IMG/VR virus record: IMGVR_UViG_3300021136_000062
Span: 1 to 22,496 of that record
Strand: one strand, 5' to 3'
DNA from: a virus
Length of the DNA stretch: 22,496 nucleotides
Each line of letters opens with the position of its first letter. The stretch's first letter is position 1. The position numbers were made by a program, and so were the translations under genes. A model generated the notes under the pieces. That model saw only the letters and a list, made by a program, of their open reading frames with translations. It did not search any database and had not been told where the DNA came from. Positions 364 through 10,910 of this stretch are shown here, in pieces.

Positions 364-2490
364 TTAAAGAATTCTGAAAGCTAATTTTTTGTTGGAGGGC
401 TTATATGCTGATAATGCTGAATCAAATTCAAATTGAGAACTAGAAAAACTCTTTAAGTTAAAATTAGCTGTATTTTGTTTAACATTCATTGTTAAATATA
501 GTTGTTTAACTTCAGATTTACTCATTATATCAGTCAAAGCTTTTTTGTAAACTTTATCGCTATTTAAATAAGCCGCTACATAATTAGCTAATGGAGCAGT
601 TACAATTCCAAAATATCTTTGAGGAGACAAATCTCTCCATTTTAAAGGAAAGTTTGGAGATTTTTGTATTAATTTAAAGAAAGACCCAAATTTATTTTTT
701 ATAATACCTTCTTTTTGTTGATCAGTAGTGGCTGATTTTAATAAATTTTGCATATAAACATTTAAATTACCGTGATTAATATCTTGAGCAGGTATTTTTA
801 CGATCTGTGATAATTTTTCAAGTCCAGCTAAATGTTCTAAACCTTCAGATTTTATCATTTTTGCAACTTCAATAGGTCCTTGAATTGCATCGAATGATAA
901 AATAGTTTGAAATATTTTATATAATTTTTTTTGCCCTGGTGTAGTTAATTGATCTTTTTTAAGATTTTTTATAGTATCAGTTATAGTTGCTGCGCCACCT
1001 TTATTGTATTTAGAAGATACATTATATCCGTCTAATATAAAATCTGCTAAAGGATTTGCTTCATCTGCAGGGAAAATTAATCCTGATCCTGAATCTTTTA
1101 CACTGTTTAATAATACTATTGCTCCTAAGCACTCTCCAAAATCAGAACCAATCATTCCTAAATCTTGCGAGCTAACTTGTGAAATAGCTTTTTTAGTTCT
1201 TTCACTTAATTGAATAGGCTCATTATATTTTGTAATTTCTGATACATCTTTAAATCTACCTTTTGGTGATTTTGCTAATACATCATCTACTAAACTATCT
1301 AAAAGTTCTATTAATTTTGGATTATTTGTAACTGATGGTATATTATTTTTAATTGTAGTCGCTAATGTAGCTGCGCGTTTAAATGATTTAGAAGTAACAC
1401 CTAATTTATTTGGAGTTAAAGCTTTACCTTTTGTGCTTGCGCCTTCTTTCATAGTACTTACTACAAATATGGATTCTCCTTTCTTATAGTTATTAATATC
1501 TTTTACTAATTCAATTTTATAAGTAGGATAAGTACTAGATTTGGACTCACCTTGATTTTTTTGAAATTCAGTTATTTTAAAAGTTCCTTTAGGTAATAAT
1601 TTACTTAAAGTTTTTTCAATTACAGATTTTGTATCTGTTGATGTTTTAAAATCAGCTCTTAATACTGGACCTCTGTTACCTTTATTCTCTGTTGATACTT
1701 TAAATCCATCATCAGAAATTGCTTTTTGAATAGCTTTGTAAAGGGTTACTGTTTTTTCTGTGTTCTTTTTCATTTGATTTGTTTTTGGTTTAGAAGGTAA
1801 ATTTACTTCTTTTACCAATACCCTAATCATTTCTTGATCATTCACAGAAAATTCTTCATTGGTTATCAATAATAAATTTTTTAACATATTGATTTTCAAT
1901 GCTGATTCTTTTAACGATTCTTCACTTTCTGGAGCTGTTTCTTCTCCTGTTTCAGTGGTTTCTGTGCCTTCCTCACCTCCAGTTTCTGTAGTTTCTGCAC
2001 CACCTCCAAATCCACCACCGCCTCCAGTAGATCCTCCTCCAGTTTCTGGACGAGTTCCTTGTTCTGCTCCTTCTGGGCCTTTGCTTTTTAAAGGATTTCC
2101 AAACTTAAGAAGTCTAGCTATAGCTTCCATAGCTCTTTCTTTTATACCTATATTATTTAAATAGTATCTTTTTCCTGCTATATTTGCTTCATATATATTT
2201 TTCCCCATATATTTTATAAAGAAAAATTGACCATTGTGTAATACAATTTTAAATGTAGTTGGTTTTGGAGCAATAACAAAAATTGCTGTCAAATACTGTT
2301 TAAAATCATTGCTCATTAATTCAACTAATGTCTCTCTTAACCCATGATATTTACGTATAATAAATCCCATAGGATCCTCTTCAAATCCTTCAGGTTTTTT
2401 AGGTTTTTCATTTGGTTGCTTTTCAGGATCATTTGGATCTGCGTCTGCTTCCAATAATATTTTTAATATGTTATTATTATCTATCATCAT
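364..2490 (-). CDS. Large multidomain late protein with a PD-(D/E)XK-like core
   Basis: A 708-residue protein of unknown function. It has an N-terminal segment (NILKILLEADADP, residues 7-19), a compact domain at about 40-132, a low-complexity linker rich in Gly, Thr and Glu (146-190), then a long C-terminal region. Within the latter, F-G-E453-C-L-G, L-A-D483-F-I-L-D-G and V-S-S-K494 are spaced like the E...D...(S/E)xK active site of PD-(D/E)XK nucleases; K-A-L-T-P-N-K-L-G-V precedes it (residues 356-365). This fold assignment is inference from motif spacing, not a match I can confirm. There is no signal peptide or membrane segment. It is the last gene of a unit with the 174-aa gene and lysozyme, 16 bp after lysozyme. 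The start is ATGATG at 2490; the second Met is equally possible. Alternative: a virion structural or internal head protein without nuclease activity. Confidence 0.75.
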   Translation of the reverse strand: MMIDNNNILKILLEADADPNDPEKQPNEKPKKPEGFEEDPMGFIIRKYHGLRETLVELMSNDFKQYLTAIFVIAPKPTTFKIVLHNGQFFFIKYMGKNIYEANIAGKRYYLNNIGIKERAMEAIARLLKFGNPLKSKGPEGAEQGTRPETGGGSTGGGGGFGGGAETTETGGEEGTETTETGEETAPESEESLKESALKINMLKNLLLITNEEFSVNDQEMIRVLVKEVNLPSKPKTNQMKKNTEKTVTLYKAIQKAISDDGFKVSTENKGNRGPVLRADFKTSTDTKSVIEKTLSKLLPKGTFKITEFQKNQGESKSSTYPTYKIELVKDINNYKKGESIFVVSTMKEGASTKGKALTPNKLGVTSKSFKRAATLATTIKNNIPSVTNNPKLIELLDSLVDDVLAKSPKGRFKDVSEITKYNEPIQLSERTKKAISQVSSQDLGMIGSDFGECLGAIVLLNSVKDSGSGLIFPADEANPLADFILDGYNVSSKYNKGGAATITDTIKNLKKDQLTTPGQKKLYKIFQTILSFDAIQGPIEVAKMIKSEGLEHLAGLEKLSQIVKIPAQDINHGNLNVYMQNLLKSATTDQQKEGIIKNKFGSFFKLIQKSPNFPLKWRDLSPQRYFGIVTAPLANYVAAYLNSDKVYKKALTDIMSKSEVKQLYLTMNVKQNTANFNLKSFSSSQFEFDSALSAYKPSNKKLAFRIL
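1921..2055 (-). repeat. Low-complexity Gly/Thr/Glu-coding stretch
   Basis: This part of the 708-aa gene encodes a Gly-rich run followed by repeated E-T-T-E-T-G-(E/G)-E units (residues 146-190). Its DNA is built from repeated CCTCC and TTTCTG-type words on the plus strand and is visibly richer in G+C than its surroundings. It reads as a flexible interdomain linker and is a plausible site of replication slippage. Confidence 0.7.
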
Positions 2491-5066: not shown

Positions 5067-5465
5067 TTATTTTATTAATTCAGCAAAGATATTTTTTTTA
5101 ACCCCTTCGTATATTAGTTCATTTTTCTTACCAAATTCTCTCATTAATATTCCAGCCACTATATTAGCTTCATCTTCTACATCAGATCCAGTTTCTCCTG
5201 ACTTAGCGTATAATAATCCTAATTCATTTTGTCTATGATGTGTTAATTCATGACCTAAAGTACGTAAAGAATCTGCTAAATTTCTATTTGCAATATACAT
5301 TACTATTGAATTTTTAGCATCTGTATATTCTCCAAAACTGTGTCTAGCTAATACCCAACTTTTATCATCTATAAAAGTTATTTTAGGAAGGTTTTCTATC
5401 TTTAAATGATAAGATGCAAAATCTATAAAATCTTCTATTAAATTTATTCTTTCTTGAGTAGTCAT
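5067..5465 (-). CDS. Small HExxH metallopeptidase-like protein
   Basis: A 132-residue protein with the zinc-protease signature G-H72-E73-L-T-H76-H in a helix, followed 20 residues later by E97-D-E99-A-N-I-V-A-G, which can supply the third ligand (E97 or E99), as in gluzincins. The core is small, with no propeptide or signal sequence. The family is recurrent in T4-like phages, but its substrate is not known to me. T4's own prohead protease is a serine enzyme of a different fold, so this is not its obvious equivalent. The ATG overlaps the stop of the 756-aa gene by one base (TAATG), so the two products are probably made together. Confidence 0.8.
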   Translation of the reverse strand: MTTQERINLIEDFIDFASYHLKIENLPKITFIDDKSWVLARHSFGEYTDAKNSIVMYIANRNLADSLRTLGHELTHHRQNELGLLYAKSGETGSDVEDEANIVAGILMREFGKKNELIYEGVKKNIFAELIK

Positions 5466-7735
5466 TATCTTGTAAATGATGTTTCTAATCCTCTAACTAT
5501 AAAGGATCCAGTTATTTTAAATGGTTCGTTCGCAATTGCTTTATCTCTTACAACTATGCCCTCTTGTTTATCAACCGGACCTAAAGGAGAATTCATAGAT
5601 TTTAGTAATGAATCTCCCAATTCCATAGTAGCTTCATAAATTACAAAAGAATCTATAGCAACTTTTTGGTCTTTAGGATCCGCAATCAAATCAGTTATAG
5701 GTGTTCCTTTTTTAACAGCTAAAAATACTTGTTTACTTAATGCGTCTACTGTTTTACCGTCTTTTAATTTTAATTTAAGACCTTTTGTATTATTAGCTTC
5801 ACTTAACCACTGTTTAAGAGATTTAGTTTGCTTATTTTTTCCATCAATATTAACAGTATAATTTTTAGAAAGAGCTAATCCATAGTTTGGAGTTTTTTCT
5901 AATTTAGCAGGAATTGAAGATAGTATTTCGAATCCGTATTTTTTAGCTACTGGTTGCATTTTAGTAATCATAGACTCTAAAACATCTTTAGAGTATGGAA
6001 TTTCATGAGTTGATCTTGATTTTTTTCCTGGATTTTGAGCTATTTCTAATAGTCCATGGATAGCTAAAAAGTTTTTACCATAATCTTGCACATTTGTCTT
6101 GCCTTCAACATATTCTATATTAAGCATTATATTAGGATTTTTAATCATTCCTAATTTAGCTAAATCATCTTTTATTAATGGAAGAGACTTATTAAAAATA
6201 TCTAATACATTACCTCCAACTTTAATCATTCCATGTCCAGGTATATCGAATCTTGCAGGAAGATCAGCTTTTGTAACTCCTTTTACATCTAATTCTTTAG
6301 ATGATCCTCTATCAATTACGAATTCTCTTTTTCCATCTATATTACCGAGTCTTATTGAAGCATTTACGCCGTCTATTTTTACTGGTGCGGGATTTTTTGT
6401 TAAGAATTTTGCAGTTTGTTCAAATACTGATAATAAATCATTACCGGTTTTAACTCTATCTAGATCGAATGGATGGGCCATATGACCACCAGCTCCTCCT
6501 TCTCTTAATAGCAATCTAAGCAAAGATTCATTTAAATTAGAAACTTTTGGTTTTCCGTATAATCTTTTTACGATAGTTTTATCTACTTTAGATAATTTTC
6601 TTTTATAATATCCATCATCCATCATTTCTAATCCTTTATTTCCGGCTATAGAATTTATTATTTTTGGATCTGTAATTACTGGTACATCGGATTTTGAGAG
6701 AATATCTTCCATTTTCATGGAAGCTTCTAAAAACCATCCTGGGGTTTTTAATAACCTAAATACTTGTTTTAATAAATCTTTTTTTGCTTCTTTTTTATCA
6801 TTAGTTCCAAGTAAAGCTATTTTATTTCCAAACTCAGTTGGTTTGTATATTATAAATGCATCAGGTATACCATCGTTATCCACGTCTTCTATAGAAACTG
6901 CTTTATACTTACTTCTTAATTCATTGTAGTCTGATGCTGAAAAATCCAATCCATTTTTTGCGTAAGTATTTGAGTACATATCCCAAATAACTTTCATATC
7001 TTCATCTTCTAAAGAACTTAGATCATAGTCTTTCCAAACTCTATCTTTTAAATCGAATTTCTCCTCTAAATCGTGTTCTTTTAATAGATTTTTAAAAATA
7101 GAACTTAGTATAAAAGTTTCTTTTAAAGGTTGACTAGAAAATTTTTGTTTCATTAATTTTCCTAATTTTTCATCCCACCATCCAAATATTCCCTCAAAAT
7201 TCTTTTTATATTGTTCTGTAGTAGTAGGAGTAGAAAGAGCTTTTCTTATATTTGTACCACTCATTTCTCCGACTCCAGGTATATCATAAGATTTATGAGG
7301 AGCCACTACCAAATATCCATGTTCTGTGTATGGTTTTAAAGTAGTTTCATCATCGTATTTTCTAAAATATGAATCTTTTCCTGATTTATTTACCCCAATG
7401 GTGAATCTAGGATCTTCTTTCATATCCTTTTCTCCTACCATAAACACTACGGCAGTAGTTTTTGGATCATATTTAGAAGTTATTTCTGCTGATTGATAGG
7501 GATTTTTTACTTGAACTACTTGATTTCCAAATCCATATTTAGATATGATTGCTTTTTTTTCTTGAAAGTTTAATGGACTCTTTGGAGGATCTACTTTATC
7601 TGTGGTTGCTATAAATGTATCTGCTGAACCAAATTTTGACTCTAACCATTTAAATGCCGCTGCATGATGCTTAGAAAATGGTTGAAATCTTCCTGGAAAT
7701 ACGGCTATAACTGTTTTTATCACATTAAATTCCAT
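5465..7735 (-). CDS. Three-domain protein: HIGH nucleotidyltransferase, unknown middle domain, ligase-like domain
   Basis: A 756-residue protein. Residues 5-200 form a NadM/cytidylyltransferase-type domain: G15-R-F-Q-P-F-S-K-H23-H24 (HxGH-like) and S159-G-T-N-I-R164 (the ISSTxIR-type motif). Residues 221-400 are an uncharacterised domain with D-V-D-N-D-G-I-P-D (284-292), like a calcium-binding DxDxDG loop, and possibly a GNAT-like fold. Residues 413-756 resemble nucleotidyl-lysine ligases: K453-I-D-G456 (motif I), L-N-I-E541-Y-V-E-G-K-T-N-V (motif III-like), E725-G-I-V-V-R730 (motif IV) and F-K740-I-T-G (motif V-like). G-A-G-G-H-M-A-H-P-F opens this domain; from memory it may be the phage family DUF6267. 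Two L-L-x-K/R-E-type segments (to E220 and E412) separate the domains. It heads a unit with the peptidase and the 189-aa gene. The first domain is a firm call, the ligase reading moderate, the middle domain weak. Confidence 0.82.
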   Translation of the reverse strand: MEFNVIKTVIAVFPGRFQPFSKHHAAAFKWLESKFGSADTFIATTDKVDPPKSPLNFQEKKAIISKYGFGNQVVQVKNPYQSAEITSKYDPKTTAVVFMVGEKDMKEDPRFTIGVNKSGKDSYFRKYDDETTLKPYTEHGYLVVAPHKSYDIPGVGEMSGTNIRKALSTPTTTEQYKKNFEGIFGWWDEKLGKLMKQKFSSQPLKETFILSSIFKNLLKEHDLEEKFDLKDRVWKDYDLSSLEDEDMKVIWDMYSNTYAKNGLDFSASDYNELRSKYKAVSIEDVDNDGIPDAFIIYKPTEFGNKIALLGTNDKKEAKKDLLKQVFRLLKTPGWFLEASMKMEDILSKSDVPVITDPKIINSIAGNKGLEMMDDGYYKRKLSKVDKTIVKRLYGKPKVSNLNESLLRLLLREGGAGGHMAHPFDLDRVKTGNDLLSVFEQTAKFLTKNPAPVKIDGVNASIRLGNIDGKREFVIDRGSSKELDVKGVTKADLPARFDIPGHGMIKVGGNVLDIFNKSLPLIKDDLAKLGMIKNPNIMLNIEYVEGKTNVQDYGKNFLAIHGLLEIAQNPGKKSRSTHEIPYSKDVLESMITKMQPVAKKYGFEILSSIPAKLEKTPNYGLALSKNYTVNIDGKNKQTKSLKQWLSEANNTKGLKLKLKDGKTVDALSKQVFLAVKKGTPITDLIADPKDQKVAIDSFVIYEATMELGDSLLKSMNSPLGPVDKQEGIVVRDKAIANEPFKITGSFIVRGLETSFTR

Positions 7736-7757: not shown

Positions 7758-10700
7758 CTAAATATGTTCTATCTTAGATTTACCTTTGATCTTATTGATC
7801 TCTATATGAGAATCTACAACATCTCGCATAGAATCAATATGGGATATGATCATTATAAACTTAAATTGTGTCTTTAAGTAGTCAAATAGCATGATCATAG
7901 AGCTTAAATTAGTAGAATCTAACGCACCAAACCCTTCATCTATGGCTAAAAAATTAGGCTTTGGAAGCGATGACACATTAATTAAAGAAGTTCTAATAGC
8001 CAAACTAGCTATGAATTTTTCCATTCCAGAAGTTAGTTCTAAAGGCCAATAATTGTCTTCAGAATACGCTATATATGCGTTAATGGACTTGTCTTCTGCT
8101 TGTAACACAATTTGGAAATCAACTATTTGACTTAAAATGTTATTAATTTCCTCTTCTACACTTGGTATGATACTTGCGATTAAGGTGTGCGGAATACCAT
8201 CTCTATGAGTAGAGGTTAAATACATTTGGTAATCTTTAAATTTTAGTTCTAGATCTCTTAAATTATCTATGGATTTTTGATAAGAATCTCTATTTTTTTC
8301 AGTTAGCTTATATTCAATAGTGAGATTGGTTATTTGCTTATTCACTGAGGTTAAAGAATCTTCATACTCATTTTTTACGGTTTGTAAAGAAGATATCGTT
8401 TTATTTACTTCTTCATTTTTTTGAATAGATTCTAAATGATCGTAATATTCTTTTATAAGATCCTTTTCTGTTTGTAGCTGAATATTTCCCTGTCTAAGTT
8501 TATCATAGATCTTATTTATTTCTAATTCTAATTTAGATTTTTCTAATTCAAATTTACCAATTTCAGCTTCTAAATCATCATAAAAATTAGAAATTCCTTG
8601 CCATTCTTTTAATTCATCAACTTTAAATTTTAATTCTTTTGCCTCATTTTCTAATAAATTAACTACTAATTCTTCATTTACGATATTTTTTTTAGTTTCT
8701 ATAGCGTCTTTAACAAAAATATTATTCATACAGAAAGAACAATTTTCATCGTACTTTAATTCTGCAAGTTTTTCCATCTTTTTTTGACTATTCCATAAAT
8801 TAGTAGAAGCTTTTGTTAGCTCTAAATTCTTTTTAGTTAATAATTCTCTATTCGTTTTCCAATCTTCTACGCCTTGATTTACTTCTTTATGATTCAATTT
8901 CGATAAACTTTCAATTTTTTCTTTTAAAGTAGATTCTATTTCTTCTAATTTTTTCTGTCTATCGATAGTCATTTGATGTAATTTTGTTACAGCATCTTCT
9001 ACACCCTTTTTATTTCTATTAAGATTATCTATATTTTGAATTTTTGAATTCAATTTAATTAATTCTTTTGTTTTTTCAAGAATTTCTTTGTCTTTTTGTT
9101 GAATTTTAAATACTAAATTATTCTTATCTTCTGTCTTTTCTTCTATTTGAATTTCAAAAGTTTCCATATCATAATTAGCTTTCTTCAATAAATCATGATA
9201 ATCTTCTTTTTGATGTTGTTTAAGTAACACAGAAAGATCTCTTGATTCATTATTAGCTAATTGATATAATTCTTCATAGATATTGATGTCTAGAAATTGT
9301 GATAATAAATCTTTACGATCACTTTGAGACATATCAATAAATCCAGTATTATTATTTTGAACAGACAACGCAGTTAATATAAAATCTTCATAGTTACCCA
9401 TGATTGATCTAATATTAGCATTAGTATCACTACGATCTTTTCCATTTAAAGAAGTAATTTCTTCTCCATCTTTACAAGAAAAATCCACATTAACTTTAAC
9501 ATTACCTTGTTTTTGTTTAATTCCTTTTCTTTCAATTGTATATTCTTTACCATGTAATTCAAAAACTAATTTGCAATGAAAATTATGAGATTGATTGTTC
9601 ATTACTTGAGCAGCTTTTGATGTTTTAGAACATTTATCAAAAATACAATAAGTAATAGAATCCAATAAAGTAGATTTTCCACTAGCATTTGGAGCAAAAA
9701 TACCATATGTTCCTTCCATATTTGAAAAATCTATTTGATTACCTTTTCCATAAGAGAACATGTTATCAAATTCAAACTTTTTAGGAATCCACATTGAATT
9801 TCTAGGAACTTCCGATTTAGAAAGAGCATTATTTAAGTTAGAATTTATTTCTAAAATTCTTAGTATAGAATCTTTATCTATTTGAAAATTATCTTCTAAA
9901 TAATTCGATAATACTTGATTTTGATATTGAAGATCTCTTACATCAATAGAGTGAATTTTATGTGTTAAAAACTCTCCAACAAGATCATTAATCTTTTGAA
10001 TAGAAGTTTCTATTACGTTATATTTTTCTTTAACATCAGAAATTATATCTTTTATTGTAGATTGACTTGTATTTTTATGTCTTATTCTCAAATAAAGATT
10101 TTTAGAAAGATCAGAAGGTAATTTATCGTACTTTCCTTTATCTACATAAATTGTATAAAAAGATGTATCATTTTCTATTTCTACGTATTCAGCACTTCTA
10201 TTATTTAGATCCCACACTAAAATGCCTTTACCAATTGTTTCTCCATGATTTTGTTGAATTAAAGATCCTGGATATCCTATTGTTTTATCTTCATTTAAAA
10301 ATTGTCTAGTGTGAATATCTCCAAATAATCCGAAATCGAATCCATCAAAATCTGATATATTCAAGCATTGATCTAATAATTGAGCATTTTCTTTTATTTG
10401 AACTCCAGTTACCGGTCCATGATATAAACAAATTTTGTATTCAGTCCTTAATTTATCTGGTTTAATGTATTTTTCTGGTTTATCAAATACAGACCAATGA
10501 ATAAACATTATATCGGCTATAGTAATTACGCACGTGTCTATTAAATAGACTAAATTTGGATGGTTTAATGCCTTTACTATCGGAGTAAGTGCGTCCATAC
10601 GGTGAGAATTATTTAAATTCGCATCGTGATTTCCAGGAATCATTAAAACAGGTCCAATATTACATAACTTTCTTAAAAATTCTTGAACTATATTCACTAA

Positions 10701-10910
10701 TTCAGGAGTTACGTCAGTTTTAGAATGAACAATATCTCCTGTTAACAAAATTAAACTATCGTCTGTAAAAGTATTAGTTATGTATTTGTTTAATCTATCA
10801 AAAACTCTAGAATATTCATCATGTCTTTTAAAATTTCTAATGTGTATATCACTAATGTGGTATATTTTGTTTAATTTTTCAAGATCAAAAAATGTGTAAT
10901 TACTTTTCAT
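7758..10910 (-). CDS. Fused SbcD-SbcC (Mre11-Rad50; T4 gp47-gp46) recombination nuclease
   Basis: A single 1050-residue chain containing both halves of the DNA-end-processing complex. The N-terminal phosphoesterase has S-D21-I-H23, G58-D59-I-V-H62, G93-N94-H95-D96, H138, H164 and G197-D198-I-H200, the metal-binding set of Mre11/SbcD. From about 373 the Rad50/SbcC ATPase follows: Walker A A-P-N-A-S-G-K412-S-T, long coiled coils (about 560-715 and 735-900), a zinc hook C724-S-F-C727, signature L-T-S961-G-M, Walker B F-L-A-I-D991-E992, D-loop G-A-L-D and H1024. In T4 these are two proteins (gp47 about 340 and gp46 about 560 residues). No stop or frameshift is visible at the junction (310-375). 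It resects DNA ends for recombination-dependent replication. It starts 5 nt after the primase stop. Confidence 0.95.
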   Translation of the reverse strand: MKSNYTFFDLEKLNKIYHISDIHIRNFKRHDEYSRVFDRLNKYITNTFTDDSLILLTGDIVHSKTDVTPELVNIVQEFLRKLCNIGPVLMIPGNHDANLNNSHRMDALTPIVKALNHPNLVYLIDTCVITIADIMFIHWSVFDKPEKYIKPDKLRTEYKICLYHGPVTGVQIKENAQLLDQCLNISDFDGFDFGLFGDIHTRQFLNEDKTIGYPGSLIQQNHGETIGKGILVWDLNNRSAEYVEIENDTSFYTIYVDKGKYDKLPSDLSKNLYLRIRHKNTSQSTIKDIISDVKEKYNVIETSIQKINDLVGEFLTHKIHSIDVRDLQYQNQVLSNYLEDNFQIDKDSILRILEINSNLNNALSKSEVPRNSMWIPKKFEFDNMFSYGKGNQIDFSNMEGTYGIFAPNASGKSTLLDSITYCIFDKCSKTSKAAQVMNNQSHNFHCKLVFELHGKEYTIERKGIKQKQGNVKVNVDFSCKDGEEITSLNGKDRSDTNANIRSIMGNYEDFILTALSVQNNNTGFIDMSQSDRKDLLSQFLDINIYEELYQLANNESRDLSVLLKQHQKEDYHDLLKKANYDMETFEIQIEEKTEDKNNLVFKIQQKDKEILEKTKELIKLNSKIQNIDNLNRNKKGVEDAVTKLHQMTIDRQKKLEEIESTLKEKIESLSKLNHKEVNQGVEDWKTNRELLTKKNLELTKASTNLWNSQKKMEKLAELKYDENCSFCMNNIFVKDAIETKKNIVNEELVVNLLENEAKELKFKVDELKEWQGISNFYDDLEAEIGKFELEKSKLELEINKIYDKLRQGNIQLQTEKDLIKEYYDHLESIQKNEEVNKTISSLQTVKNEYEDSLTSVNKQITNLTIEYKLTEKNRDSYQKSIDNLRDLELKFKDYQMYLTSTHRDGIPHTLIASIIPSVEEEINNILSQIVDFQIVLQAEDKSINAYIAYSEDNYWPLELTSGMEKFIASLAIRTSLINVSSLPKPNFLAIDEGFGALDSTNLSSMIMLFDYLKTQFKFIMIISHIDSMRDVVDSHIEINKIKGKSKIEHI

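Follow-up and report, generated by a model that had tools for sequence, protein, structure and literature searches.

A putative packaged polyprotein with nucleotidyltransferase, GNAT-like and ligase-like domains in a T4-like phage

We analysed a 22,496-nucleotide stretch of viral DNA, the 22.5-kb record IMGVR_UViG_3300021136_000062 of a T4-like phage (hereafter the window), and in it an open reading frame (ORF) of 756 residues. Its predicted product joins a HIGH-type nucleotidyltransferase, a GNAT acetyltransferase-like domain and a ligase-like domain by two linkers, which end in a motif matching the cleavage site of the T4 prohead protease gp21. Judging from its sequence, the chain is probably a packaged precursor polyprotein of three enzymes that is cut at its joints, and not one multi-step enzyme. 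By analogy with T4, the protein would be cleaved, packaged and injected. The features of the chain are listed below; a slash marks the position after the Glu of a putative site.

5465..7735 (-): ORF of the putative precursor polyprotein, 756 residues; full-length ORFs of the same architecture exist in contigs L001, L002 and L003
7133..7717 (-): HIGH-type nucleotidyltransferase domain, residues 7-201; PHROG_395 match (1.4e-8) and model match to NadM 2qjo
7664..7693 (-): GRFQPFSKHH, degenerate HIGH motif with the first His changed to Ser, from the sequence and clade comparison
7244..7261 (-): SGTNIR motif; S159 and R164 are the sole invariant columns of alignment A3
7052..7132 (-): linker 1, residues 202-228, with E206, E220 and E225 each ending an [LI]xE site; modelled with low confidence
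6536..7051 (-): GNAT acetyltransferase-like domain, residues ~229-400; Foldseek matches to GNAT chains
6500..6535 (-): linker 2, residues 401-412, [LI]xE sites after E403 and E412 (NLNE/SLLRLLLRE/GG); [LIV]xE is found here in relatives
5468..6499 (-): ligase-like covalent nucleotidyltransferase domain, residues 413-756; model pLDDT 90.2, T4 Rnl1 match
6368..6379 (-): motif I, KIDG, with the predicted adenylated lysine K453; invariant, and the KxDG of a far subfamily falls on T4 Rnl1 K99
6302..6313 (-): DRGS at the motif Ia position; invariant in aligned relatives
6107..6121 (-): motif III, NIEYV, with E541; aligned with T4 Rnl1 E159
5543..5563 (-): motif IV, EGIVVRD; E, G and V invariant, EGYVAV in T4 Rnl1
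5507..5521 (-): motif V, FKITG; K and T invariant, FKIKS in T4 Rnl1

A chance fusion or an assembly error was ruled out by the same architecture in independent contigs. The initial annotation had placed the ORF and its motifs correctly: GRFQPFSKHH lies at residues 15-24, SGTNIR at 159-164, KIDG at 453-456, NIEYVEG at 539-545, EGIVVR at 725-730 and FKITG at 739-743. It had missed the GNAT-like domain and the [LI]xE motifs of the joints.

The three domains

A ligase-like C-terminal domain had been proposed from motifs, and the ordered motifs, the invariant residues and the predicted fold (Z 8.8 to T4 Rnl1) bear this out. Among 27 relatives aligned to the window protein (51-84% identical), K453, D455, G456, R476, E541, E725, G726 and K740 are invariant, and KxDG, Ia, III, IV and V follow one another as in the ligase superfamily, with invariant K, E, E and K. 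The far relative of Microcystis phage Mel-JY01 has KLDG, NLEIL, EGIVF and YKLTG in the same order. In a profile alignment, the KxDG of this far subfamily (Mel-JY01 and two huge phages) falls on K99 of T4 Rnl1 and its motif III Glu on E159. Together with its invariance, this alignment places K453, which the initial annotation had singled out, at the motif I position.

A model of residues 413-756 was built from 28 sequences (predicted local distance difference test, pLDDT, 90.2) and compared with solved structures. In a Foldseek search of the PDB, T4 Rnl2 (the best, 9.7e-3), an archaeal RNA ligase and T4 Rnl1 ranked first, with weak E-values. On structural re-alignment T4 Rnl1 came first (Z 8.8, 176 residues, 3.9 Å), and the best 50 structural matches were all RNA, DNA or tRNA ligases or close relatives. 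The fold found is thus that of the ligase superfamily, at a distance. Pairwise profile comparisons with Rnl1 and Rnl2 gave weak matches (best E 0.0014), while Rnl1 against Rnl2 gave 0.041 and unrelated controls 0.17-0.75. A PDB sequence search with the window protein or the ligase profile as query returned nothing relevant. The window domain has no Pfam hit, neither to Rnl1 (PF09511) nor to the Rnl2-type family (PF09414), the latter being matched by 5 of 28 relatives (best E 0.0035), and neither Pfam nor PHROG has a model dedicated to the family. Ligase ancestry of residues 413-756 is well supported; strand joining by the domain is not supported by this evidence.

The N-terminus matches the PHROG_395 cytidyltransferases at 1.4e-8 and Pfam CTP_transf_like below its cut-off. 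The model of residues 1-408 is less certain (mean pLDDT 80.5), its GNAT part coming from five sequences. Modelled residues 8-206 matched NadM 2qjo best (Z 11.8, 156 residues, 2.9 Å), in agreement with the NadM-type domain initially suggested, in a tie with archaeal NMNAT (11.6) and PPAT (11.3). The (H/T)xGH motif of the HIGH superfamily is absent from the window protein, which has SKHH. The first His is replaced ([GSA]xHH) in 32 relatives and HxGH is found in 19; the window clade has SKHH or GKHH, whereas marine relatives keep HxGH. By its modelled fold, the HIGH-superfamily relationship stands despite the degenerate motif. The GNAT segment was matched by Foldseek to 9mto (3.5e-5) and RimI 5isv (2.4e-4), and this module is present in only seven viral contigs.

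Joints, relatives and genomic setting

At least 437 matches to the ligase domain were confirmed in viral contigs, but next to none in cellular genomes; a search of a genome collection gave a single match, on a 3-kb contig of a metagenome-assembled genome, which argues for a phage family. The chains of 62 non-redundant relatives range from ~350 to 1482 residues; they open with the HIGH nucleotidyltransferase and have the ligase at or close to the end. Between the two lie, by lineage, nothing, GNAT, HAD-type, metallopeptidase, superoxide dismutase (SOD), plastocyanin, SET, DUF192 or unknown modules. A HAD-type segment in one relative matches PHROG_415 (polynucleotide kinase), and metallopeptidase-like segments are fused inside the chains of L060-L077. 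Standalone ligases exist in L040, L057 and L156, and in L070 with a probable GTG start.

We found [LIV]-x-E directly before the ligase start GGAxGHMAHPFD in 58 of 59 non-redundant relatives; as the relatives are not independent, this and the other joint counts are not probabilities. The P3 residue is Leu in 43, Ile in 12 and Val in 3, P2 is variable, and position -4 is Leu or Ile in 49 of the 58. The preceding sequence is poorly conserved, and the upstream partner changes. The sole exception is L033 (6555-9026), in which an HNH-like insertion occupies the ligase joint and no E precedes the GG. There, and also in L034, the insertion is in frame and immediately follows an LLTEGGAADH copy at the ligase start. 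With dissimilar upstream sequences, Glu also stands directly before the GDTYEKM module in 9 of 9 distinct contexts (LIV at P3 in 8) and before the NFPPYK module in 7 of 7 (LIV at P3 in 6). In two-domain members, the density of [LI]xE is 4.72 per 100 residues in linkers versus 0.40 in domains (twelve times), and that of the reversed motif is 1.83 versus 0.86 (two times). Standalone ligases begin with short leaders, for example MNLIKILLSE/GG. BLAST breakpoints were rejected as markers of junctions, being noisy (starts 0.32 and ends 0.51, versus 0.22 at random).

The joint motif matches the site of the T4 prohead protease gp21, which cuts after L/I-x-E (PMC9026906). T4 internal proteins have a targeting leader of ~10 residues (PMC9958956). 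That of IPIII is MKTYQEFIAE/A. In two sets of contigs with the gene, gp21 homologues were found in 8 of 10 and 3 of 5, and gp23 homologues in 7 of 10 and 3 of 5; the 22.5-kb window itself contains no gp21 homologue. Contigs whose ligase is 99% identical carry homologues of gp21 (2.9e-29) and gp23 (5.8e-76); in one of them, the gene for the chain and both homologues share a strand and fall within 20 kb. The N-terminal regions of these proteins include MKQLLIE/HSL in gp21 and ...QLIVE/TSQ in gp23, compared with LLIE/TWG and FLTE/AEI in T4. The nucleotidyltransferase of cyanophage S-SM1 (SSM1_190, T4-GC190) starts with a T4-like leader, MKKFSAFLNE/A. T4-GC190 is a core gene, and its product was detected in purified S-SM1 virions, as was gp21 (PMC3037559).

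In S-SM1, T4-GC190 adjoins the T4-GC71 gene, which encodes a DUF6267 protein with KWDG and EGFV. The nucleotidyltransferase and DUF6267 genes of S-PM2 are consecutive in reversed order, with DUF6267 spread over both frames; at L195:26-1805 it spans two annotated genes (S-PM2p141 and p142). BFVD holds a single 591-residue S-PM2 chain with a ligase model match of 1.1e-4 (Foldseek), and a frameshift or sequencing error may have split the chain that is whole there. The profile match between DUF6267 and the ligase domain is weak (E 0.029); with the motifs and the Foldseek match, it makes it probable that DUF6267 belongs with this ligase family. Nucleotidyltransferase and ligase are also adjacent genes in a 462-kb phage, and they share a single chain in Mel-JY01 (WWT39297) and in a 484-kb phage. 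The nucleotidyltransferase and ligase are likely to be functionally linked and, because the pairing recurs in both orders, may serve one shared purpose even if the domains part.

Related chains were noticed under other names or with other contents. The marine chains L061:1431-5660, L071:5427-9065, L068 and L069 have SOD, plastocyanin-type cupredoxin, SET and DUF192 modules between [LI]xE joints, which are candidate packaged redox or modifying enzymes. Flavobacterium phage immuto gp088 (L166:12132-14855), annotated as NadR, is a 907-residue chain similar to the window protein, with a Pol-beta-like segment, a HIGH nucleotidyltransferase and two metallopeptidase-like segments. Its neighbourhood (primase, exonuclease, chain, zinc-ribbon gene) is like that of the window. 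H8ZNG8 of Synechococcus phage metaG-MbCM1 (728 residues), named NrdB ribonucleotide reductase A subunit, has a ligase-fold match of 2.4e-5; to judge from this model match, the name is probably wrong.

In the window, an SbcD-SbcC fusion and a primase lie upstream of the 756-residue ORF on the same strand, and an endolysin lies downstream. Genes of baseplate type, read from sequences and not from a search, occupy the opposite strand. A further gene overlaps the ORF:

5067..5465 (-): small zincin-like metallopeptidase gene with HELTHHRQ, its start overlapping the 756-residue ORF; weak Pfam hits only

SbcD and SbcC, counterparts of T4 gp47 and gp46, are fused as a single 1050-residue chain at 7758-10910 (-). 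At 364-2490 (-), a 708-residue protein without a Pfam hit has a leader-like start, MMIDNNNILKILLE/ADADP, which makes it a possible further packaged protein. A protein near gp21 and gp23 in L184 starts similarly (MNKDLHILKAILLE/AD). The T4 late promoter TATAAATA occurs in the window at chance-level frequency, and PADLOC gave no match. Compared by major capsid protein, a close relative has Flavobacterium phage immuto (52%) and Microcystis phage Mel-JY01 (50%) as its nearest cultured phages, from which a Bacteroidota host appears likely.

Competing explanations and a proposed mechanism

From the two domains in one chain, the initial annotation had proposed a joint chemistry, namely nucleic-acid end repair, capping or NAD-linked modification. 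The domain calls stand, while the joint-enzyme reading is weakened by the third, unrelated enzyme, by the varying middle enzymes and by the protease-like joints. A stable multifunctional enzyme, with nucleotidyltransferase and ligase acting together on nucleic-acid ends (for example, in nicotinamide mononucleotide (NMN) recycling or 5' cap priming) and LxE as plain linkers, would explain why the pair is kept far beyond the clade, in S-SM1, S-PM2, the 462-kb phage, Mel-JY01 and the 484-kb phage. We consider it rather unlikely, since unrelated GNAT, SOD, plastocyanin, SET, DUF192, HAD and metallopeptidase modules sit between the pair in relatives, plain linkers would hardly account for a conserved P3 and P1 around a variable P2, and standalone ligases exist. 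Alternatively, the N-terminal domain might be a NadM-type NMN adenylyltransferase that restores NAD+ in infection, the rest of the chain being accessory. NadM is its best structural match, and phages carry NadM with NadV (PMC9503650). This is quite improbable, however: the domain scores 13 bits against a curated NadM/NMNAT equivalog cut-off of 449, its Z-score ties with that of PPAT, its first HIGH His is lost, and neither NadV nor NAPRTase was detected in seven related contigs of up to 180 kb (possibly fragments), although the controls were.

Release by an embedded peptidase has been proposed for polyvalent proteins (PMC5512222), and a chain of this kind (Iyer et al. 2017) would be injected uncut and freed in the host by its own peptidase domain. 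The metallopeptidase-like modules embedded in several relatives and the metallopeptidase-like gene overlapping the window ORF could be taken in this sense, but most two- and three-domain members lack a peptidase, none is among the three domains of the window protein, and the joints fit gp21, whose substrates are cut in the prohead; we therefore regard this explanation as distinctly doubtful. That the conserved LLxE helix belongs structurally to the ligase domain, and is not a cleavage site, is very unlikely. The helix is always there and its position -4 is also hydrophobic, but xxE is likewise found immediately ahead of unrelated modules from other families, and gp21 and gp23 of these phages have the motif in their N-terminal propeptide regions.

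Several observations weigh against a polyprotein cut by the prohead protease. Besides the non-independence of the relatives, the [LI]xE motif is short and also occurs inside the ligase domain (E564, E646, E701), and the window protein itself lacks an N-terminal leader. Genome-wide, N-terminal leaders were not significantly enriched in a 174-kb relative (58 of 187 genes versus 52 of 187 for an internal control stretch). Virion presence is published only for the cyanophage nucleotidyltransferase, not for the ligase family or the window protein. As for the proposed activities, the window clade lacks the first His of HxGH, and the second motif V lysine of Rnl1 (FKIKS) is replaced by Thr (T742, FKITG) in all family members, which may have changed or abolished sealing.

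The reading we prefer is a packaged precursor whose domains probably part in the capsid, because the joints carry a prohead-protease signature. The precursor would be made late in infection of a T4-like phage, probably in a Bacteroidota host, with its three enzymes joined by short hydrophobic helical linkers ending in [L/I]-x-E. The chain would be taken into the prohead core, with its linkers or leader peptides in the role that capsid-targeting sequences (CTS) have in T4. A gp21-type prohead protease would then cut after Glu, the domains would separate in the capsid, and the freed enzymes would be packaged with the DNA and later injected. Charged at K453, the ligase domain might act as infection begins, before phage gene expression, and seal the ends of broken RNAs such as tRNAs cut by the host, with the nucleotidyltransferase as its partner. 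RNA repair is a tentative assignment, suggested by the ligase fold, by a segment resembling PNKP in one of the relatives and by the fact that no other RNA ligase was detected in related contigs. Neither the Rnl1 nor the Rnl2-type family was detected in these contigs, and the absence of Rnl1 is uninformative since the Rnl1 control was also undetected anywhere. More broadly, we lean towards the view that T4-like phages of uncultivated aquatic groups carry polyprotein cassettes that lineages exchange at their [LI]xE joints. Each cassette would be loaded as a single precursor, cut up by the prohead protease and injected as a kit. The kit would comprise a ligase and a nucleotidyltransferase together with, depending on the lineage, GNAT, SOD, plastocyanin, SET, HAD phosphatase and peptidase.

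Comparison with known systems

We found no account of such phage polyproteins in the literature searched, which covered few subscription journals. If true, the packaged-polyprotein reading would extend to tailed phages a polyprotein strategy known from eukaryotic viruses, the processing being done by the capsid protease. It would also provide a sequence rule for predicting which enzymes a phage injects, and would put a ligase at the very start of infection, the moment at which defence nucleases act. For the ligase domain, a family with more than 380 unnamed proteins in contigs of uncultivated phages now has a predicted fold.

T4 Rnl1 (gp63) and the window family share the nucleotidyltransferase core fold (Z 8.8) and the motif order I, III, IV and V, with EGxVx...FKI. 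They differ in that identity is 12-14% over the structural alignment, and motif V of the window family has one lysine only. The window family also always has a GGAxGHMAHPFD-type start and is mostly found inside multi-enzyme chains near head genes. With NadM/NMNAT, the N-terminal domain shares the fold and the SGTxxR motif, whereas its HxGH is degenerate, no Nudix domain was seen and no NadV partner was found in the related contigs.

The internal head proteins and Alt of T4, which have a CTS and are cut by gp21, resemble the present system in the hydrophobic leader with L/I-x-E at its end, in the gp21 homologue encoded in the genome and in the candidate injected enzymes. However, the T4 proteins have one leader each, while the signals of the window chain are internal and separate several enzymes. 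As in the polyvalent proteins (PMC5512222), several unrelated enzymatic domains are found in one phage chain, which is probably packaged and injected; unlike them, the window chain would probably be split at its recurring [LI]xE joints, by the prohead protease and not by an embedded peptidase. RNA ligase is named three times in that study, never inside a polyvalent protein. The cyanophage cytidyltransferase T4-GC190 with DUF6267 (T4-GC71), corresponding to PHROG_455/395, likewise has a HIGH nucleotidyltransferase beside or joined to a KxDG...EGFV domain, in reversed order. The window protein offers a reading of T4-GC190, a core virion protein of cyanophages, beside DUF6267.
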